Source of the DNA: a virus
Reading direction: 5' to 3' (one strand)
Virus record (IMG/VR): IMGVR_UViG_3300025009_000292
Coordinates: 1-34,018 of that record
DNA: 34,018 bases
The notes beneath the pieces were generated by a model that had not been told where the DNA came from, made no database searches, and worked only from the letters and a program-made list of their open reading frames with translations. The translations under genes were made by a program, and so were the position numbers. Shown piece by piece: positions 1-33,973 of the stretch (positions are counted from its first letter, which is position 1; each line of letters opens with the position of its first letter).

Positions 1-33
1 GTTTACATTTTCAATCTCGAAAACTTTCTTCAT
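1..33 (-). CDS. Start of a 23-residue ORF that closes across the window ends (partial)
   Basis: An ATG at 33 overlaps the HNH stop codon as ATGA, the usual sign of translational coupling. Eleven codons (MKKVFEIENVN) run to base 1. If base 1 is joined to base 34018 the frame continues for twelve more codons (LERIIYSPIRID) and stops at TGA a few bases before the small terminase start. No domain is recognised. The peptide matters mainly as evidence for circularity; it may also be a real leader peptide or simply chance. Confidence 0.35.
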   Translation of the reverse strand, partial: MKKVFEIENVN

Positions 34-407
34 ACCCCTCCCCTTGGACTATGAATCCGATTACCGAATCCACCATCTGATGCAGCGGTCTTCCGACTAT
101 GACAACTCGTGCACATCGGATTGAGGTTGCTCTCCTCGTGTGTCCCACCCTGTGATAGCGGGACCACATGATCAACATGCCGAGCCATCACCCTCATCCC
201 GGAATGCACACCATACGGATCCGAGCACCACATGCGTTTCCGTAGAAACGCCTCGCGTATCTTGCGCCACTCGTAGTCGTACCCTCTAGCGCTGGAGCTC
301 CCGCGCTCCTGCTCCCGCTGACGCAAATGCACAGCACACAGCGAACCAGACCGCACCAATTCGATGCAGCCTGGATATGAGCAGGGCTTGAGCGCAGCAT
401 TCGGCAT
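30..407 (-). CDS. HNH endonuclease (terminase-associated)
   Basis: A small HNH nuclease. The N-terminal part has a zinc-knuckle-like C-x4-C ... C-x2-H pattern (CSYPGC and LCAVH). The C-terminal half holds the HNH core HVDHVVPLSQGG followed by NLNPMCTSCHSRK, with the His-Asp-His metal site and paired cysteines. HNH proteins next to phage terminases are known to help cut concatemeric DNA at cos in several phage families. Here the gene becomes the direct neighbour of the P27-type small terminase if the window is circular. The ATG at 407 is preferred; a GTG at 434 would add nine residues and overlap the upstream gene by 14 bases. Confidence 0.9.
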   Translation of the reverse strand: MPNAALKPCSYPGCIELVRSGSLCAVHLRQREQERGSSSARGYDYEWRKIREAFLRKRMWCSDPYGVHSGMRVMARHVDHVVPLSQGGTHEESNLNPMCTSCHSRKTAASDGGFGNRIHSPRGGV

Positions 408-420
408 CAATCTCTCAGTT

Positions 421-843
421 TCATTTGATTCCACCTGTCCGAATAAACAACACCAGCAGCGCCATTCCCTGGGTAATCACATAAGCAATCACTATCATGA
501 TCACTGCCCACACGCGCCCTGATATCTTTTCTTTGCGCGCTTTGGTTTCGGTAGCCAGTTTATCCTTAGCCGTTTTCTCTTCGGTTGCCAGCAGCTTCTT
601 GGCCTCGTCTGCTTGCTGAGCCAGGAGCTTCACCGCGTCGTCCTTTTCTTGTTCACAACGCAAATGATCCTTGACCAGTAGCTGTAACTGTCGATGGTCC
701 TCAATGATCCCCGGCTTCCCATTGCCGTTGATCGCCTGATCCAGCTTGTTCACCTTTTCACTGATGAACGACACATCACTGATCAACCTGCCAAGCATGA
801 GAGTAATATCGTTATTACTTGCCTCTTTCGGTGAACCTGCCAT
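421..843 (-). CDS. Coiled-coil protein with C-terminal membrane anchor (holin/XhlA-like)
   Basis: A 140-residue protein. Residues about 10-100 are charged and rich in Lys, Glu and Ala with heptad-like spacing, consistent with a coiled coil. A single hydrophobic helix (VWAVIMIVIAYVITQGMALL) lies near the C-terminus and is followed by a short tail. This layout resembles XhlA-type phage haemolysin or antiholin proteins and small phage membrane anchors. It lies between a multi-pass membrane protein and HNH at the start of the presumed late operon, far from the lysin gene. Its role in lysis is therefore only a guess. Confidence 0.6.
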   Translation of the reverse strand: MAGSPKEASNNDITLMLGRLISDVSFISEKVNKLDQAINGNGKPGIIEDHRQLQLLVKDHLRCEQEKDDAVKLLAQQADEAKKLLATEEKTAKDKLATETKARKEKISGRVWAVIMIVIAYVITQGMALLVLFIRTGGIK

Positions 844-854
844 GTCGACGCGCC

Positions 855-1193
855 TTATTCAGCAGATGGCTTTACAAAATAACGATTCACCAGGTCATGC
901 AGATAGTTTGCACCGCGCCCAATGGCTGCCCCAGTCAGAATAATGCCGAAGATATTGGTCGCGATTCCAGCCTTCACATACAAACCGATTAAATAAATAA
1001 GATCAAATTGATAAACAAACGCGCCGATTATGCCGACCCCCATCGCCACATACATCAGCGTCCACTTGTACGGAGTGATCCCGGGAACATGATCGAACAG
1101 CGCACCGAACAGATACTCCACCAGGCTTTCAACCAAAAACGCCATCAGGAAAATGACAAGCAAAATCGCGCCGACACTTAACTCAACATTCAT
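855..1193 (-). CDS. Small multi-pass membrane protein, holin candidate
   Basis: A protein of 112 residues with about three hydrophobic segments: VGAILLVIFLMAFLVESLVEYL near the N-terminus, WTLMYVAMGVGIIGAFVY in the middle and IATNIFGIILTGAAIGRGANYL near the C-terminus. Size and topology fit phage holins. The start at 1193 is chosen because GGAGG lies six bases upstream; the longer ATG at 1205 overlaps that ribosome binding site. It is the first gene after the terminator and promoter-like region at 1240-1480, so it probably opens the late transcript. No homologue is recognised by name. Confidence 0.6.
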   Translation of the reverse strand: MNVELSVGAILLVIFLMAFLVESLVEYLFGALFDHVPGITPYKWTLMYVAMGVGIIGAFVYQFDLIYLIGLYVKAGIATNIFGIILTGAAIGRGANYLHDLVNRYFVKPSAE

Positions 1194-1240
1194 TTCATCC
1201 TCCATAGATTGAATAATAGGTACATTTTCTTATACTATTC

Positions 1241-1269
1241 ATCTTATGCCGGGATGAGCATTGATACAA
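1241..1269 (-). promoter_or_regulatory. Candidate late promoter A
   Basis: On the minus strand TTGTAT (1269-1264), a 17-base spacer and TAAGAT (1246-1241) give a weak sigma70-like match, about 40 bases upstream of the first late gene. The -35 overlaps an 18-base box, GGTTTTCCCTACGTTGTA, at 1282-1265, which is repeated exactly at 1479-1462 with its own promoter-like match. A weak core with a repeated upstream box suggests an activator-dependent promoter. Confidence 0.45.
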
Positions 1270-1307
1270 CGTAGGGAAAACCTTATAGCACGTGCTCTCC
1301 GTGCGTA

Positions 1308-1338
1308 CCCCGGGAGTGGCTGCAAGCCACGAGTGGGG
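1308..1338 (-). repeat. Intergenic hairpin element, GGGG type, copy 1
   Basis: Outer stem CCCC/GGGG and inner stem GTGGCT/AGCCAC around GCA; total 31 bases. It is preceded by GCGTAC on the plus strand. A second small hairpin (GCACG/CGTGC) lies beside it. It belongs to the family described under findings and lies upstream of candidate promoter A. Confidence 0.75.
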
Positions 1339-1353
1339 CTACTACGCATTAAC

Positions 1354-1383
1354 AGAAAAACGCCCGGGCACCAACCGGACGTT
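1354..1383 (-). terminator. Rho-independent terminator
   Basis: The minus-strand RNA forms a nine-pair stem AACGTCCGG / CCGGGCGTT (one U-G pair) with loop TTGGTGC, followed by TTTTTCT. It lies after the last early gene (1545-1946) and downstream of candidate promoter B, and before the first late gene. Confidence 0.75.
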
Positions 1384-1437
1384 CTTCGCTTGCAGCCGAT
1401 CACCAACCAATAAGGAGGGAAAAGAAGGAGTGCTTAT

Positions 1438-1466
1438 ATCCTAAGCCAATCACCCTCCTCTTACAA
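1438..1466 (-). promoter_or_regulatory. Candidate promoter B (duplicate of promoter A)
   Basis: On the minus strand TTGTAA (1466-1461), a 17-base spacer and TAGGAT (1443-1438). The same 18-base box as promoter A (1479-1462) overlaps its -35. A transcript from here would meet the terminator at 1383-1354 after about 75 bases. Confidence 0.4.
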
Positions 1467-1501
1467 CGTAGGGAAAACCAAACCTCGCGCTGTATTGCGC
1501 G

Positions 1502-1532
1502 CCCCGGGAACGGCTGTAAGCCGTGACTGGGG
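1502..1532 (-). repeat. Intergenic hairpin element, GGGG type, copy 2
   Basis: CCCC/GGGG outer stem and ACGGCT/AGCCGT inner stem, 31 bases. The minus-strand copy begins with GGAAACCCC shortly after the stop codon of the 1545-1946 gene. A GC-rich companion hairpin (CGCGC/GCGCG) follows it. It sits upstream of promoter B just as copy 1 sits upstream of promoter A. Confidence 0.75.
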
Positions 1533-1544
1533 TTTCCAATTCAC

Positions 1545-1946
1545 CTACTCTTTGAGCTTTGGCCAAATACTAATTGGCTGCCCACATCGCCGGCATTTTG
1601 GATAGTGCGTCTCCTCAGTAAGATCGATAGGATTAAAATAAGTGCTTGGTCCCAAGATTTGTCTTTCGTATTTGAGTACTGGGCTTCCATCTGACCAAAC
1701 AAAATCTTCCGAGAGTATCTCCATGTCCTTTTTCATCTTTTTTGTGCAATAAAACACAATACATCCACAAGTATCATGAATATACGCATACTTAAATTTC
1801 TTTGGAACCCATACATTTTGAAGATCTTCAACTGCTGCCACATAGGCTTTTTGCCTTTTGAGTATCATCTCCGCATCTGGAACAGATGTACCACTCGCAC
1901 TTTCCCATTTAACCTGTTTCTTAAATATCCTGTTCAACCAATTCAT
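1545..1946 (-). CDS. Hypothetical protein with cysteine pairs
   Basis: 133 residues starting MNWLNRIFKKQVKWE. The start at 1946 is chosen because GAGGTGAGA lies directly upstream; the reading frame extends further but would overlap the LuxR-like gene. Cysteines cluster at TCGCIVFYC in the middle and as PKCRRCGQPI at the C-terminus, suggesting bound zinc. No named family is recognised. It is the last gene before the terminator at 1354-1383, so it probably closes the early operon. Confidence 0.7.
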   Translation of the reverse strand: MNWLNRIFKKQVKWESASGTSVPDAEMILKRQKAYVAAVEDLQNVWVPKKFKYAYIHDTCGCIVFYCTKKMKKDMEILSEDFVWSDGSPVLKYERQILGPSTYFNPIDLTEETHYPKCRRCGQPISIWPKLKE

Positions 1947-1971
1947 TCTCACCTCTCTCCTCAATTCTACA

Positions 1972-2205
1972 TCAATCATCCTCGAAAGGATTAACCAGCC
2001 CCAGCGCCACCGCCTTCGCCACCGCCGCCGGGCAGCTTGGCGCATCCAGCTTCCGCTTGATATCACTCACGATCACCTCAACCCGGCTCTCCGAAATCCC
2101 CAGGCAGTCAGCGATCTTCACCTGCAAGTCCCCGCGCACCAGCCCCGCCAGCACCTGCAGCTGCCGCGCCGTGAACTTCACGCTAGCCAGCGGGTGCGTC
2201 GTCAT
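1972..2205 (-). CDS. Single-domain LuxR/GerE-type HTH regulator
   Basis: 77 residues that are almost entirely a GerE-like DNA-binding domain: FTARQLQVLAGLVRGDLQVK, then IADCLGISESRVEVIVSDIK, then RKL. The conserved LuxR pattern of helices including the recognition helix is visible. There is no receiver or ligand domain. GAGGAGAAGG about ten bases upstream supports the ATG at 2205. Standing near the end of the early operon and just before the late control region, it is a reasonable candidate for the late-gene activator, possibly acting on the repeated box at 1265-1282 and 1462-1479. That link is inference. Confidence 0.8.
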   Translation of the reverse strand: MTTHPLASVKFTARQLQVLAGLVRGDLQVKIADCLGISESRVEVIVSDIKRKLDAPSCPAAVAKAVALGLVNPFEDD

Positions 2206-2497
2206 TACCGAAAACCTTCTCCTCGTACCGATGCCATAACCAACACTTCGCCAATGCGCCAGCATAAGACCCTCCGTCAAATCGATGAACGCCGTGCACA
2301 CTCACCGTCCGCTTCTTCATCCTGCGGAACACCCGCCAAAAAGACACATCCGTCTTCGAACACATCGCCAGCACCATCTGCCTGAACACATCCCCCGCCT
2401 TCGCATCGAAATCAGCCGCCGCCTCATCCCACGCCTCCTGATCGCCCAGCCCCTCGATGCGCTCTTTCTCTTTGATCATTACATCTTGGCTTAACAT
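2183..2497 (-). CDS. Hypothetical early protein
   Basis: 104 residues beginning MLSQDVMIKEKERIEGLGDQ. The ATG at 2497 overlaps the stop of the VRR-NUC gene by a few bases, and the end overlaps the LuxR-like gene, so the three are probably translated together. The first half is acidic and helical in composition; the second half is basic and aromatic (SFWRVFRRMKKRT, CWLWHRYEEK). No family is recognised. A start at the second Met (2479) is possible. Confidence 0.65.
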   Translation of the reverse strand: MLSQDVMIKEKERIEGLGDQEAWDEAAADFDAKAGDVFRQMVLAMCSKTDVSFWRVFRRMKKRTVSVHGVHRFDGGSYAGALAKCWLWHRYEEKVFGNDDAPAG

Positions 2498-2919
2498 GAG
2501 GATGGATCCGTCCTTTTCAACTCCAAATACCCTTTGATGGCATCCCGCGCCGCCTCCCATCCGAAGCACACATCCACCTGATATCCAAATTCCTTCAGCT
2601 TCGCGATCCAAACAGCCTGTTCCGGGCTAACCTTTGCGCCCTTTCGCAGGCTCTTCAACTCGACGAACAATCCGTGATACCCGCCCGCAGCCACCGGAAG
2701 GCACAAGTCCGGCACACCCGGCTGCAGCCCCTCGCTCTTGAGGATCATCGCCTGCTTGCTGTAACGGTTCTTCCCTTTGCCCGTGTATGGCAGCTTCGCA
2801 CCGTTCGGGATGGCAAACAGCCACGACGCATCCGGGTACTGCGCCAGCGTCGCCGTCTCCCGCGTCCAGCGCATCAACTCCACCTGCTCCGAGTGCTCAG
2901 AGAATACTACTTCGCCCAT
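2491..2919 (-). CDS. VRR-NUC domain nuclease
   Basis: 142 residues matching the stand-alone VRR-NUC branch of the PD-(D/E)xK nucleases common in phages. The catalytic stretch is GLQPGVPDLCLP followed by HGLFVELK (Asp, then Glu-x-Lys), then a conserved Gln in SPEQAVW and the closing GYQVDVCFGWEAA strand. Such proteins are usually Holliday-junction or structure-specific nucleases. Upstream IPNGAK also fits the family. The gene is coupled to its downstream neighbour by overlap. Confidence 0.9.
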   Translation of the reverse strand: MGEVVFSEHSEQVELMRWTRETATLAQYPDASWLFAIPNGAKLPYTGKGKNRYSKQAMILKSEGLQPGVPDLCLPVAAGGYHGLFVELKSLRKGAKVSPEQAVWIAKLKEFGYQVDVCFGWEAARDAIKGYLELKRTDPSSC

Positions 2920-3056
2920 TACAAACCGCCGTATAATGAATTCATGAAGTCCTTAGTTCGCGCAGTGAGTGAATTGATCTGCATCCTCTTATCCTTGCCG
3001 GCACATGTGGTCATGATGCTGGCATTCATCCTGGTATTGTGGGTAATTCTGATCAT
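2919..3056 (-). CDS. Possible 45-residue protein coupled to the VRR-NUC gene
   Basis: An ORF beginning MIRITHNTRMNASIM and ending LYGGL; its TAA overlaps the nuclease ATG as TAATG. It fills an otherwise empty stretch of the operon in the correct direction. The ribosome binding site is weak. The opposite strand encodes a hydrophobic peptide over the same bases (2944-3066), so only one of the two is likely to be real. Confidence 0.4.
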   Translation of the reverse strand: MIRITHNTRMNASIMTTCAGKDKRMQINSLTARTKDFMNSLYGGL

Positions 3057-3066
3057 GTCTCAATAG
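2944..3066 (+). CDS. Possible 40-residue membrane peptide, antisense
   Basis: ATG at 2944 encodes MKSLVRAVSELICILL and a long hydrophobic stretch (VVMMLAFILVLWVILI). TATAAT lies at 2932-2937, so transcription would begin about at the ATG and the message would be leaderless; no ribosome binding site or convincing -35 is seen. Hydrophobic antisense shadows of hydrophilic genes are common, so confidence is low. Confidence 0.25.
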   Translation: MKSLVRAVSELICILLSLPAHVVMMLAFILVLWVILIMSQ

Positions 3067-3075
3067 GATTGAAAA

Positions 3076-3192
3076 TTATCGTTTGGAATTACCGCTGCTG
3101 GCCACCCACAGACCAACAATATAACCCACCAAAAAACAAATAGCGGGAAACAGTCCTGGAATCTCAAAATTTATCATCTTTAGAAATGTCAT
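3076..3192 (-). CDS. Small single-pass membrane protein
   Basis: 38 residues, MTFLKMINFEIPG followed by a hydrophobic segment LFPAICFLVGYIVGLWVA and a polar tail. The ATG overlaps the previous stop as ATGA, and GAGG lies seven bases upstream. The gene is too short for most gene callers. Function unknown. Confidence 0.6.
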   Translation of the reverse strand: MTFLKMINFEIPGLFPAICFLVGYIVGLWVASSGNSKR

Positions 3193-3584
3193 CTCTCCAC
3201 CTCATTCAGCACTGTGGCTATACGATTCCAGGCGAGGATGGCGAGTTCACGGGTGCCGCAATATGGCAATTCAATACAGTAATCGTTGCTTTTATATATT
3301 GCAAAATGGATATCAGCAAACCCCTCTCTGACAATCTCGGGCAACTTCCCCCACAACGCTATCGGCTCTACTGCGGGGGTCAGGTCAGGGAGGTCAAGGA
3401 TTGTGTAGCGGATAACCTTCGGTTCGCCAACGAATACAGCCACAAACATCGCATCGTTACTAATAAAGCAAATTTCAACACGATTTCCGGCAACAGATTT
3501 CCATTCATACAGAACAGTCTTGCCAATCACATCTTCAATTAGTGGAATTTCCGTTGACCAATTCAGTTTAGATTCAGGTGTCAT
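3189..3584 (-). CDS. Hypothetical protein, weak Lar-like C-terminus
   Basis: 131 residues with AAAGGAG just upstream. The protein is acidic to neutral with a beta-rich composition. The tail YCGTRELAILAWNRIATV recalls the C-terminal part of Lar-type restriction alleviation proteins (a CG zinc pair followed by an A-W-N-R helix), but the other cysteines of that family are missing. I treat the function as unknown. It is coupled to the small membrane protein downstream. Confidence 0.65.
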   Translation of the reverse strand: MTPESKLNWSTEIPLIEDVIGKTVLYEWKSVAGNRVEICFISNDAMFVAVFVGEPKVIRYTILDLPDLTPAVEPIALWGKLPEIVREGFADIHFAIYKSNDYCIELPYCGTRELAILAWNRIATVLNEVER

Positions 3585-3649
3585 TTTTGCTCTCCTTTGT
3601 TTTAGGTATTACCATAATGCTGTGTCCACTATTACTCCAGCGGATGCTT

Positions 3650-3952
3650 TCATGCTTTCACCTCTTTATCCTTTAGCGCCTGCGCTTCACTCAGCATCTT
3701 CCCGCATCGTTTGCAGGCGAGCACCTTCACAGCGTCCTGCCCCTCTTTCGAGATCTCGAACGTCTTCCAGCCCTTTTCGAGCAGCCGTTTGCCGGCATCC
3801 TGGGCATCAAAAGCCATCACATCGCTCACCTTCGTGCATACCCCGCACCTGCACACAAACCGCTGCATCTTCTTGAATAATCCGTGATACTCCCTGACCT
3901 GATTTGAAGATTCAGTGCCTTCCGTGTTTTCCGTGGTTAATTGATTTTCCAT
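3650..3952 (-). CDS. Zinc-ribbon-like protein
   Basis: 100 residues with CRCGVC at about residue 37 and CKRCGK near residue 82, a plausible four-cysteine zinc site. GAGG eight bases upstream supports ATG 3952. The N-terminal part MENQLTTENTEGTES is encoded by bases resembling the CCACGGAAAACACGGAAGGC repeat seen between genes in many environmental bacteria, so the true core may begin at MQRFVCRCG, with the start region grown from a repeat. Function unknown. Confidence 0.65.
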   Translation of the reverse strand: MENQLTTENTEGTESSNQVREYHGLFKKMQRFVCRCGVCTKVSDVMAFDAQDAGKRLLEKGWKTFEISKEGQDAVKVLACKRCGKMLSEAQALKDKEVKA

Positions 3953-3988
3953 AATCACATCCTCTCTTTAGCGCGCTCTTTGCGCGTA

Positions 3989-4019
3989 CCCCGGGAACTC
4001 GTGAAACGAGTGACTGGGG
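3989..4019 (-). repeat. Intergenic hairpin element, GGGG type, copy 3
   Basis: CCCC/GGGG outer stem; inner stem ACTCGT/ACGAGT, fully different from ACGGCT/AGCCGT of other copies yet still paired. The minus-strand copy starts GGAAGCCCC directly after the stop codon of the nucleotidyltransferase gene. A companion hairpin CGCGC/GCGCG follows. Confidence 0.8.
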
Positions 4020-4897: not shown

Positions 4898-4922
4898 AAT
4901 TTCTCCTAGCGTTTTTTGCGTA

Positions 4923-4944
4923 CTTCGACAGTTCGCGGTCGAAG
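4923..4944 (-). repeat. Intergenic hairpin element, AGTT-loop type (copy 8)
   Basis: CTTCGAC / GTCGAAG with loop AGTTCGCG. The same loop occurs at 18776-18799 with stem ACTCCGAC / GTCGGAGT, so the stem has changed on both sides while the loop is identical. It starts at the stop codon of the zinc protein gene and is preceded by GCGTA on the plus strand. Confidence 0.8.
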
Positions 4945-4945
4945 C

Positions 4946-5131
4946 CTATCTTGGTAAATTAGTGCGCCAGTCAACCATCCTGATCGTCCGCATGTGCCCG
5001 CAGGCATCACACTTCACGATCGTCCTTTTATCCGGCGTGATCTCTCGCAGCGTGCACTTCCGGTGATCAATGATCAACTTCCCGTCCACGATATCCGCCA
5101 GCACAACCCCGCATTTCAGGCACTCAATCAC
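4946..5131 (-). CDS. Small two-CxxC zinc protein
   Basis: 61 residues with CLKCG at the start and CDACGH near residue 42, a likely four-cysteine zinc ribbon. The GTG start at 5131 overlaps the upstream stop as GTGA, with GGAG seven bases upstream. DNA or RNA binding is possible; function unknown. Confidence 0.7.
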   Translation of the reverse strand: MIECLKCGVVLADIVDGKLIIDHRKCTLREITPDKRTIVKCDACGHMRTIRMVDWRTNLPR

Positions 5132-6057
5132 AGCCCGGCTCCACCGTGCGTGCCCCGGGAACGGCCGAAAGCCGTGAGTGGGGTTTCAGACCTTTTCAAC
5201 TTTCCTATCCTGAAACCTACCTGCTTGCTGTCCCGCTTCATCAGCCTGCCGATCTCCACGGAATTCCTGCCCTCAGCGTCCATCCTCAGCATGAACTCGT
5301 CCGCCCGGTCAGTGATCCAGGGTATACGTCCGTCTGTGCGCAGGGGATGGCGGTACCTCTCCGCGTCACTCAATCTCACGAACCAATAAGCCCAGTTGGC
5401 ATTATTCCTTCCGCCAATATGCGGGCACTGGATTGCCGGCAGTCGTTTTTTATACACATCCGCCATTACCGTTCTGGCATTCTTCAATCCCTTGAGCCTG
5501 GCAACCTCGGCACTGCTCAGCCACTGATCACCCCAGCGCGCCTGTGCTTTTTCAACCAGCCTTCGCAGGTACCCGGGTTTCATCTTTTCCACTTTAAAGT
5601 ATGGCCAGTGCTCCGGACGCGTCACCCAGTATTTCAAATACTCAAGGTTGATCAAGGTAATGTCCCGGCGCTCAGTAACTGCCGGCTTCCCCTCCATGAT
5701 CCCCAACCGCACCCATGCCGGGACCGTGTGGCTGTCAAGCCCCATCAGCTTGCATACCCGGTGAGCTGTCACCCAGCCTCTTGCCCGGATCGGTGCCGTA
5801 AACCCCAGTCGCGTCCAATGGACCTTGATCGCGTTGGTCGACCTTCCCAACGCCGCTGCCATCTCGCTCATGGTCAATACACCCAGGTTCTCTTTCAGGA
5901 AATCGTCCTCTGTTTTAGACCATGCCGGGTTCCTGGTAATTGTCTGTTTTTCACCACGGAGTATCCCGCCGCGGCTTTGAAGTACAGCCGGAGAAGCACC
6001 CGCTGAAAGCATGGCGTCGCTGACAATGACGTTCATCATCTCCGCCAGTTCGGTCAT
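5128..6057 (-). CDS. HTH DNA-binding protein with a repeat-derived C-terminal tail
   Basis: 309 residues. AWSKTEDDFLKENLGVLTMS to LGRSTNAIKVHWTRLGF (about residues 46-87) looks like a SANT/GcrA-like HTH that recognises DNA. A second HTH-like segment follows (WVTAHRVCKLMGLDSHTVPAW), a third near residue 180 (LSSAEVARLKGL), and a last near RNSVEIGRLMKRDSKQVGFRI. Serial HTH modules suggest a regulator or DNA-organising protein. Start ATGA overlaps the ParB-like stop. The last 20 residues are encoded by hairpin element copy 4, so the frame appears to have been extended by that repeat. Confidence 0.75.
   Translation of the reverse strand: MTELAEMMNVIVSDAMLSAGASPAVLQSRGGILRGEKQTITRNPAWSKTEDDFLKENLGVLTMSEMAAALGRSTNAIKVHWTRLGFTAPIRARGWVTAHRVCKLMGLDSHTVPAWVRLGIMEGKPAVTERRDITLINLEYLKYWVTRPEHWPYFKVEKMKPGYLRRLVEKAQARWGDQWLSSAEVARLKGLKNARTVMADVYKKRLPAIQCPHIGGRNNANWAYWFVRLSDAERYRHPLRTDGRIPWITDRADEFMLRMDAEGRNSVEIGRLMKRDSKQVGFRIGKLKRSETPLTAFGRSRGTHGGAGL
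5153..5183 (-). repeat. Hairpin element, GGGG type, copy 4, inside a reading frame
   Basis: CCCC/GGGG outer stem and ACGGC/GCCGT inner stem, 31 bases, preceded by GCGTGC. Unlike most copies it lies inside a gene, encoding about residues 292-303 of the 309-residue HTH protein. Confidence 0.75.
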
Positions 6058-16748: not shown

Positions 16749-17315
16749 TCATTCACTCTCCCAAGTCATCACTTGACCGCCAAGTAAATATTCGATCACA
16801 AGTTTTGGCTCGGCATAGGTTGTGTTGTCAAAAGATGCAACCGTGCGCTGTGAACCGGATGACCCGCCGTTTTCGTGAATTAGAACCGCCAGCGTGTTGC
16901 CACTAGCCCACCCCGCGCGGTTTAGTATTTCCTGAACAGCCGTTGTTATATTCCATGTGTACTCAGTACCGGCGGTTTGTGCTGCTACATTGTTGTCATC
17001 GGTGTATGCTGCTGACATGGTTCGTGAATTAAGCGTAGCCCATGTGGAAGGTGCGCTCGGATTGTCTGCCGCTTCACACCCGAACCTTAATTTACAAGTT
17101 GCACCGGAGCGGGTATTGTTGGCAACCAGTTTAATGGTTGAAGAGACAATAACCGTGTTTTTCAGGAATGGAACAGCAGTAAAAGGAATCCACGCCTTAC
17201 ACGGATCGTCTGAAATCTTACCTAGTTCCAGCCCCGTGCCGGAAATACTGAATACAGAACCGGAAGCCCGTCCGTAGCAATCATCCGCTGTGGTTGATAA
17301 GGTTGCAATCACCAT
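16749..17315 (-). CDS. Virion-surface or tail fibre protein, DNRLRE-like fold
   Basis: 188 residues. AWIPFTAVPFLKNTVIVSST, TLNSRTMSAAYTDDN and WNITTAVQEILNRAGWASGN, then SFDNTTYAEPKLVIEY, give the beta-sandwich pattern of DNRLRE-type domains that bind surfaces or carbohydrate. In a tail cluster this suggests receptor binding. It lies immediately before the lysin. Confidence 0.65.
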   Translation of the reverse strand: MVIATLSTTADDCYGRASGSVFSISGTGLELGKISDDPCKAWIPFTAVPFLKNTVIVSSTIKLVANNTRSGATCKLRFGCEAADNPSAPSTWATLNSRTMSAAYTDDNNVAAQTAGTEYTWNITTAVQEILNRAGWASGNTLAVLIHENGGSSGSQRTVASFDNTTYAEPKLVIEYLLGGQVMTWESE

Positions 17316-18775: not shown

Positions 18776-18799
18776 ACTCCGACAGTTCGCGGTCGGAGT
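18776..18799 (-). repeat. Intergenic hairpin element, AGTT-loop type
   Basis: ACTCCGAC / GTCGGAGT, eight perfect pairs, loop AGTTCGCG, flanked by GCGT and TTCC. Same loop as 4923-4944 with a compensated stem change. Confidence 0.8.
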
Positions 18800-31766: not shown

Positions 31767-33536
31767 TCATTTCATCCCCCAATCTTCCGAAAGGATCTCA
31801 TCGCTGATATCCTTGAATCCGGCCGATTGCAGCACAGCCAGCCTCACCATCGCGTTAATAATTGCCGCCAGTGGATCAATGCGCTGCGTGTCATCCTTGT
31901 TCAATTTGCTCAACTTAATGTTTTCGTTGTTGTCGTGTACTTCCTTGGCGTTCCCCAGCGCCCACTTCAACAGCGGGCTGCCGTCATGGATGATTTTCTT
32001 TTGCGCGATCATCGTCCTGAATAATTTGGTAGGTTCGCTCAATGTCCGCGCACCCTGCCTGATCTCCACACACACCCGGCCCTGGTCTGTGAGCTGGGTC
32101 GCCAGATGGGTCGCGTTATAGGGGTCGTAAGCCACTTCCAATACCTTCAAGTGGTTCTCGGTCTCGTAGTCATCCATGTGTTTGACCACCGCGTCATAAT
32201 CCGTCACCGCCCCCTCGGTCATGGTCACCCACCCATCGTTAATCCAGTCTCGATAGGGGATCTTGTCCGTTTTCTCATGCCTCACCACTGCCTCAGATGG
32301 CATAAACCCATGCGCGCACACCGCGATCTTGTCTTCCTCTGGCAGATAGAACAAAAACCCGTCACCTGTCAGATCCATTGTCTTAGCCAGGTCAGTACCA
32401 AAGATACACGGCATGCCGTCAACCAGTTTTGCAAAAGCCTCCTGGCGCTGAGCCGGGGTCGACCGCTTGACTGGCAGCACCGAGAGCTCATCCCACAATG
32501 CCAGGTATTCACCGATGTACCCGCTCACAGTGTCATACACCCATTTATTCAGCCGCTTGATTCTGAAAGTCCTGATCTTGTCCGGGTCCTTCGAGGAGAA
32601 CGCCTCATCGTGTTCTTCCTGCAGCGCTTCCATTCCCTCGGGTATTGTTGCGATCAGCGGGTTAGCCTTGATCCAATTTTTGGGATCGTGCTCGTCATCG
32701 TCCTTATCCATCTCGCAGATATAAACAAAGTAACGATCATTCGCGATCGCTCCGGAAAGGATCTGTTTGCAGTATTCGTATTCCTTGAAGCACGGGCTTT
32801 TTTCAGCGTTCTCACCCGCCGTGGTGATGATCACCATCAACATTTGCGCTCTGTGCGCCCTGGCGCTGGCGATCAGGTCGTAGATCTTGCTCGTATCATG
32901 CGCATGGTATTCGTCAATGATCGCGCCTGAGGGGTTCAGTCCATCCTTGTTCTTGGTCTCTTTCGATAGGGGCATCAGCTTCCCGCCCCTGGTAATATGG
33001 CTCATCGTGTAGTTCCGGATCTTCATCCGCTTGGCAATATCCGGGCTTTTCTCAGCCATTACCTTTGCAATGTTATAGACAATGCGCGCCTGCTCTTTAT
33101 CCACAGCAGCGCAGTACACCGCGGGGTTTTCTTCCCCATCACCAACCATCAGGAAGTTAGCCACCCCGCCCAGGATCGTTGATTTCGCATTCTTTCTGGC
33201 CAGCTGGATGTACGCTTTCTTGAACCGGCGCAGACTACTTTTTTTATGGACCCACCCGAAGACGCACCCCAGCATGAACTTCTGGAACGGCGCCAAAATG
33301 ATCGGCTGACCTTCCAGCCTGCCTTCTACGTGGTGGCAGTACGTGAACCACTCATAGATCCGGTTGGCTTTATCTTCATCGAACACCCACGGGAAATTCT
33401 TCGTACCCTGGCGCTTAAGATCCTCCAGGTGCCGTTTGCACGCCAGCAGCTCCGACTGACCGACAACATATTTCCCCTCGGTCACATCGAGAGCATATAG
33501 AGTGCATGGGTGTAAAGTCTTGCTTTTCTTATCCAT
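31767..33536 (-). CDS. terL: Terminase large subunit
   Basis: 589 residues. The ATPase domain has a Walker A-like ARKNAKST (residues 113-120) and Walker B AIIDEYH (about 205). The nuclease domain shows FGTDLAKTMDLTGDG and later VAYDPYNATHLATQL with acidic residues of the RNase H-like fold. This is the packaging motor and headful or cos cutting enzyme, of the HK97/Terminase_1 type. TGATG coupling joins it to the small subunit. Confidence 0.95.
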   Translation of the reverse strand: MDKKSKTLHPCTLYALDVTEGKYVVGQSELLACKRHLEDLKRQGTKNFPWVFDEDKANRIYEWFTYCHHVEGRLEGQPIILAPFQKFMLGCVFGWVHKKSSLRRFKKAYIQLARKNAKSTILGGVANFLMVGDGEENPAVYCAAVDKEQARIVYNIAKVMAEKSPDIAKRMKIRNYTMSHITRGGKLMPLSKETKNKDGLNPSGAIIDEYHAHDTSKIYDLIASARAHRAQMLMVIITTAGENAEKSPCFKEYEYCKQILSGAIANDRYFVYICEMDKDDDEHDPKNWIKANPLIATIPEGMEALQEEHDEAFSSKDPDKIRTFRIKRLNKWVYDTVSGYIGEYLALWDELSVLPVKRSTPAQRQEAFAKLVDGMPCIFGTDLAKTMDLTGDGFLFYLPEEDKIAVCAHGFMPSEAVVRHEKTDKIPYRDWINDGWVTMTEGAVTDYDAVVKHMDDYETENHLKVLEVAYDPYNATHLATQLTDQGRVCVEIRQGARTLSEPTKLFRTMIAQKKIIHDGSPLLKWALGNAKEVHDNNENIKLSKLNKDDTQRIDPLAAIINAMVRLAVLQSAGFKDISDEILSEDWGMK

Positions 33537-33973
33537 CAGTCAAATTTCTCGCTAAACGAATCTTTGATCTTGTCTGCCTTTTTCTTCACCAGCCTCGCTC
33601 TTGCTGAGGGAGTAAGACCTAACTTGTCCGCATAACTGATCGCTATCCTGCTGTACGCCTGGAACTCCTTCACCTGGTCAGAGTCCAGCTTGTCCAACTT
33701 GATCAGCTTCTTCGCCTTAGATACGTTTTCGCAATATAACGCGAGGATCTCTGTATCCATGTTGTCCAGCAGCTCCACACCTTTCGTGGAAGCGAGTACA
33801 CGTTTCCATACTTCCTTGGCTCCTTTGGACAATTCACTCGGGGCATATAATCCGCGCGGTTTTGCCCGCTTGAGACCTTCGGCAGCCTTCTTCCTGGCTT
33901 CCTTTTCCGCCCGCGTCCAATGTTTTCCAGACCCGGCTTCCATGACTTCGTTGGTAACAGTTTGTGTAGGCAT
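33536..33973 (-). CDS. terS: Terminase small subunit, P27 family
   Basis: 145 residues. LSKGAKEVWKRVLASTKGVE and the terminal YADKLGLTPSARARL are characteristic of the P27-type small terminase. The N-terminal part is basic (EARKKAAEGLKRAKPRG), and would bind the packaging site. The start at 33973 has only a weak ribosome binding site; the small frame from the left window end would stop just upstream. Confidence 0.9.
   Translation of the reverse strand: MPTQTVTNEVMEAGSGKHWTRAEKEARKKAAEGLKRAKPRGLYAPSELSKGAKEVWKRVLASTKGVELLDNMDTEILALYCENVSKAKKLIKLDKLDSDQVKEFQAYSRIAISYADKLGLTPSARARLVKKKADKIKDSFSEKFD

Follow-up and report, generated by a model that had tools for sequence, protein, structure and literature searches.

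A control region near the left end of a tailed-phage genome is probably an early-to-late switch, built of familiar parts in a combination that we have not found described. It contains two promoter-like units, P1 and P2, each carrying the same 18-bp box, and an intrinsic terminator between them. In our preferred reading, which we hold with a probability of about 55%, a small LuxR-type protein activates both P1 and P2 through the box, late genes are transcribed from P2, and transcription from P1 is attenuated. We infer from sequence comparison that the promoters are active, that they are activated through the box, which protein does so and that P2 is the main late promoter.

The DNA analysed (hereafter the window) is a virus record of 34,018 bases. 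Large and small terminase subunits, portal, major head protein and tail proteins are recognised in it, which identifies a tailed phage. Near the left end, genes on the minus strand follow in the order LuxR-type helix-turn-helix (HTH) protein, a protein of 133 amino acids, the control region, a membrane protein of 112 amino acids, a small protein and an HNH endonuclease (Table 1). The membrane protein had no match in Pfam, and neither its gene nor the control region had any among the 50,697 phage records searched. From the membrane protein, small protein and HNH genes, the late operon would run on across the contig ends into terS and terL. In a related locus (L058) the genes for membrane protein, small protein, terS and terL are contiguous, the terS-like and terL-like names being read from translations, and because of this order we place the control region just before the late operon. 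The contigs of the window and of its relative G001, described below, both start at homologous positions beside the HNH gene, terS standing at the far end of the window. The contig end may be a physical genome end.

Table 1. Features of the control region and its neighbourhood (window coordinates; G001 is the relative described in the text).
Feature	Position	Strand	Remarks
P1 box, GGTTTTCCCTACGTTGTA	1462..1479	-	16 bp kept in G001
P1 -35-like hexamer, TTGTAA	1461..1466	-	TTGAAA in G001, position kept
P1 -10-like hexamer, TAGGAT	1438..1443	-	predicted start near 1431; same hexamer and spacing in G001
P2 box, exact copy of P1 box	1265..1282	-	
P2 -35-like hexamer, TTGTAT	1264..1269	-	TTGTAA in G001
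P2 -10-like hexamer, TAAGAT	1241..1246	-	predicted start near 1234; TATATT in G001, same spacing
Intrinsic terminator	1355..1387	-	dG -20.1 kcal/mol, z -3.8, U tract; same place in G001
Type-1 intercistronic hairpin upstream of P1	1502..1532	-	missing at that site in G001
Type-1 hairpin upstream of P2	1308..1338	-	smaller hairpin adjoins at about 1289-1303
LuxR/GerE-type HTH protein, single domain, 77 aa from ATG, candidate late activator	1972..2205	-	Pfam PF00196, PHROG 3282
133-aa protein with two Cys pairs	1545..1946	-	absent between LuxR gene and P1 in G001
First late-operon gene, 112-aa hydrophobic holin-like membrane protein	855..1193	-	putative holin function
Small protein, second late gene	421-843	-	
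HNH endonuclease, third late gene	30-434	-	
terS, terminase small subunit	33536-33973	-	opposite contig end
terL, terminase large subunit	31767-33536	-	opposite contig end

The two boxes form an exact direct repeat of 18 bp, 197 bp apart. No further copy with up to three mismatches occurs in the window, and 100 dinucleotide shuffles of it gave no match. Both boxes overlap a -35-like TTGWAW, which is followed by a 17-bp spacer and a -10-like hexamer, and each covers about -48 to -31 relative to its predicted start. The box has no obvious dyad; as in ComA, some LuxR-type domains also use direct repeats (PMC4797271). The cores are weak: of 12 consensus positions, their hexamers match just 7 to 9. 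A plain sigma-70 consensus scan reported neither P1 nor P2, and promoter-like and terminator-like matches in positions 1-4000 were as numerous as expected by chance. Since the consensus scan misses both promoters, the case for them rests on comparison. Just before the P2 box, at 1303-1283, GGAG is followed by GTG CTA TAA (a start, one codon and a stop), an arrangement kept in G001.

Scanning a viral collection for the box pattern returned two loci, L003 and L004. The latter looks like a chance match, situated in an unrelated place and having no -10 at the right distance. The former (also L042) belongs to G001, a 47-kb virus and true relative, whose colinear blocks are about 67-82% identical to the window and whose control region is about 76% identical. 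G001 keeps the layout of P1, terminator and P2. Both boxes are identical between the two genomes at 16 of 16 positions, and in G001 the box is restricted to these two sites. Both TTG..-17-TA...T cores are retained as well, and in all four promoters exactly 20 bases separate the box end from the -10 (TAGGAT, TAAGAT, TAGGAT and TATATT). The spacers, in contrast, are 45% identical at P2 and about 53% at P1, whereas the first late gene reaches 75% and the LuxR gene about 71%; the P1 value is approximate because the G001 slices were one base out of register, an offset that also explains the computed 15/17 for the P1 box. Functional promoters to which a factor binds should keep box and spacing while their spacers diverge. 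This is the pattern observed, and it supports P1 and P2 as real promoters, the box being known from two genomes only, which are related to each other. The original prediction of two promoter-like units upstream of the late operon is in this respect strengthened, and the search for the same box upstream of late genes in relatives found both copies in G001 and no other match that we regard as true.

The strong terminator claimed to lie between the units was confirmed: a stable hairpin, rich in G+C, runs into a U tract and so conforms to the usual definition of an intrinsic terminator. Its hairpin begins about 45 nt past the predicted P1 start, and the whole P1 transcript would be about 77 nt long. 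The P1 leader contains a pyrimidine run, ..UUUUCCCUCCUUA.. in the window and ..UUUCCUCCUUG.. in G001, with CCTCCTT in both (1418-1412 in the window). This heptamer resembles the 16S rRNA 3' tail.

The duplicated unit was first proposed to include a hairpin in front of the box. Box, -35, 17-bp spacer and -10 do occur twice as a unit; the hairpin had to be removed from it. It belongs to a family, here called Type 1, of which five copies share one strand of the window (1308, 1502, 3989, 5153 and 8146; matches on the plus strand, RNA sense minus). Their pattern is CCCCASTC-stem-loop-stem-TCCCGGGG; TACGC and a ribosome-binding site usually come next. Most copies stand either at a gene end or in the interval that separates a stop codon from the following ribosome-binding site. 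Three of the four boxed promoters are preceded by such a hairpin, and P1 of G001 has box, spacing and -10 without it. Because the five window copies lie mostly far from promoters and G001 has a P1 without hairpin, we regard it as a separate intercistronic element and reject it as a part of the promoter unit.

Type-1 hairpins covary. Across seven copies, 98.4% of cells are paired, and six of the nine pairs show changes on both sides; none of 500 shuffles matched this, a figure which is not a probability, as the copies are related to one another. G001 has at least two copies, and only the one before P2 occupies a site orthologous to a window copy. These differing positions suggest mobility or rapid turnover. 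In the stretch of 63 bases that starts with GTAGTAG and leads up to the P2 box, the window and G001 differ at one position. Rfam gave no match to the hairpin at gathering score, one sub-threshold match being due to chance. An origin as host repeat was also considered and dismissed: a genome-wide pattern scan returned 20 scattered single matches in unrelated bacteria, their inner stems mostly unpaired, and we took them as chance. A repeat in L005 has CCCCGGGA..GTGACTGGGG in common with the hairpin, but in a different context. A second hairpin type, with the loop CGCGAACT followed by TACGC, is present in the window at 18776-18797, 4922-4943 and possibly 21539. It is also seen in G001 near 2384-2415 and in G002 near 16942, shows a compensatory stem change and stands mostly shortly before a start codon.

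The candidate activator is almost entirely HTH, the profile match spanning residues 11-74 of its 77. On a longer reading of 109 amino acids it matches its Pfam family with E 1.4e-8, and its best PHROG, annotated 'sigma factor', gives E 1.2e-8. Scores against the GerE HTH profile (34.6 bits in the window, 32.3 bits in G001) exceed the curated cut-off of 23.5. The protein is 69% identical between the two genomes, and the recognition region of the HTH, GISESRVEVxVSxIKRK, is conserved. Its gene is followed directly by P1 in G001, and in the window one extra gene (1545-1946) stands between them. A class-II activator site overlaps the -35, as the box does. The idea of an activator, put forward together with the duplicated unit, fits both the position of the box and the LuxR-type HTH gene that immediately precedes P1 in G001. 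In L052, small membrane-protein genes have a related LuxR-type gene upstream of them. A second LuxR-like ORF is found in G001 at about 44638-44997 (L044:4638-4997; LuxR-type profile E 2.6e-7), so that this type of regulator is not unique there. The open-access literature yielded no paper describing LuxR-type late activators of phages.

On these grounds we propose how the switch might work. P1 and P2 would be sigma-70-type promoters with weak cores, each provided with the same activator site in a class-II-like position. The box would be bound by an early phage protein that recruits RNA polymerase, and the LuxR-type HTH protein encoded just upstream is the likeliest candidate. P2, located past the terminator, would drive the membrane protein and HNH genes and, after circularisation, terS, terL and the structural genes. 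The terminator would stop read-through from the early operon and would also end P1 transcripts, and P1 would contribute to late expression only if polymerase gets past it. P1 may have been kept through read-through under some condition, or for a role of its short RNA.

A comparable arrangement is known from the Ltr/RinA/ArpU type of late control in phages of Gram-positive bacteria. Ltr of phi13 (Ltr/P23) is the product of the last early gene and activates the adjacent late promoter via a repeated element upstream of the -10, which is needed for activation (PMC13123087). The likeness consists in the last early gene standing just upstream of its promoter, as the LuxR gene of G001 likewise does. 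The differences are that the protein here has a LuxR/GerE HTH, that single boxes occur in two promoters instead of four tandem repeats at one, and that a terminator lies between the promoters.

Attenuation appears to extend beyond the two boxed genomes. Using the membrane protein as query, we obtained first 9 and later 26 loci, in overlapping sets. Of 20 genomes, the window and G001 included, 11 have a terminator (dG of -10 or lower plus a U tract) no more than 230 nt upstream of the membrane-protein gene, compared with 29 of 530 random segments from the same loci (5.5%). Among the nine others, L074 differs in having its terminator about 200 nt upstream. The remaining eight (L053/L009, L055/L010, L057/L012, L058, L061, L073, L075/L016 and L077) show the succession of sigma-70-like promoter, terminator and ribosome-binding site, the promoters having been chosen by eye around -10-like hexamers. 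Inspection by eye found no room for a second promoter between terminator and gene in these eight, and late expression there should therefore need read-through. Attenuation as originally predicted is thus supported in spirit, as a probable theme of the clade: promoter and terminator are the sole leader seen in the other relatives. Its specific likening to lambda is not supported at P1, for reasons given below.

Five of the eight (L010, L012, L016, L058 and L077) encode a zinc-ribbon protein of 71-80 amino acids directly upstream of the attenuated leader, a candidate for a new antiterminator. A zinc-ribbon profile search of the window and G001 detected no homologue. The 133-aa protein at 1545-1946 was considered as a homologue of these zinc-ribbon proteins, which is not supported: profile comparison aligned 10 columns only, at a probability of 7%. 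Several relatives' leaders have a common motif near the start, about CAAYNNNAATAGGG. In L009 and L010, TACAAT or CACAAT stands 5 bases past the -10, placed like the -10-like pause element of Q promoters. The box read in reverse resembles the initial-transcribed motif of the relatives, with 17 of 5000 shuffles being as good; this comparison was picked afterwards and needs gaps, and we take it as no more than a lead. In L067 and L068, direct repeats GTTCTAATTGTTCTAATTG lie just upstream of TTGTAA-17-TAAAAT/TATAAT and resemble another activator site at the position of a late promoter.

The membrane-protein gene of L009 is 80% identical to that of the window at the DNA level and yet has a leader of the other, unboxed kind. 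The gene has apparently stayed while the control cassette before it was exchanged. A wider and rather doubtful picture would be that the clade attenuates its late genes and swaps cassettes, most members using the new zinc-ribbon antiterminator at about CAAYNNNAATAGGG and the lineage of the window having replaced it with the LuxR-type protein and two boxed promoters flanking the terminator.

Several other explanations of the boxed region have to be weighed. One is processive antitermination, in which the box loads a phage factor at P1 and polymerase reads through into the late genes, P2 being auxiliary; we consider it unlikely. The conserved leaders of the relatives, in which read-through control is likely, speak for it, and so does the fact that G001 keeps both P1 and the terminator behind it. 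Both AlpA (PMC9371919) and Q (PMC6606751) are antiterminators that bind DNA and are loaded at promoters. Lambdoid pR'/tR', the analogy originally drawn, likewise has a late promoter with an intrinsic terminator within about 80 nt, before a lysis-packaging operon; in the AlpA/PalpB/tB system of Pseudomonas, a promoter-bound regulator is combined with a downstream intrinsic terminator before lysis genes. However, Q loads between -35 and -10 and needs a -10-like pause just after the start (PMC6606751), and AlpA also has its site between the hexamers and needs a sigma-dependent pause (PMC9371919). At P1 the box covers the -35 and extends upstream from it, the spacers are not conserved, and reading of the first transcribed bases in both genomes revealed no -10-like pause sequence. 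Being nearly all HTH, the LuxR-type protein could not accommodate an N-terminal ring such as that of 21Q or AlpA, and P2, beyond the terminator, makes read-through unnecessary. P2 itself has TAGTAT/TATTAT from about -3 to +3, but no terminator downstream. Since the box is outside the -35/-10 interval and both a pause hexamer and a spare N-terminal part are missing, the lambda analogy is not supported at P1 of the window. It is attractive for the relatives without the box. The put RNAs of HK022 share with our region two adjacent stem-loops in a phage RNA; put elements are downstream of early promoters (PMC9378689), whereas the five hairpins here are upstream of boxes or between stop and start codons.

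Activation by another protein, be it a host regulator or a different phage protein, would leave the promoters as we describe them, and we regard it as a lesser possibility. In its favour, the link between the LuxR-type protein and the box is indirect, G001 has its second LuxR-like ORF, and the window has other early DNA-binding genes, such as a D5-like regulator at 5128-6057. Against this stand the location of the LuxR gene, the conservation of its recognition region in both genomes that share the box, and the absence of the box from the examined relatives that lack the LuxR-type protein. It is very improbable that the terminated P1 RNA is itself the product, its pyrimidine run pairing with ribosome-binding sites: CCTCCTT is present in both P1 leaders and P1 is kept though its transcript should end early, but this is a single short motif in two related genomes, and no such run was seen in the leaders of other relatives. 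Nor do we see much in the notion that the boxes are recombination sites or accidental duplications, which is extremely improbable despite the exact direct repeat, as both copies are at the same place in G001 in spite of diverged flanks and a -10-like hexamer follows at the same distance in four of four cases. Activation of P1 and P2 by the LuxR-type protein is the reading we retain.

Late-gene control of phages is known in detail for a few groups only. The late switch suggested by our comparison alone would use an activator box twice, with a terminator between the promoters, and small candidate regulators can be named for both types of switch. If true, related phages exchange attenuator-based and activator-based late switches before the same gene.
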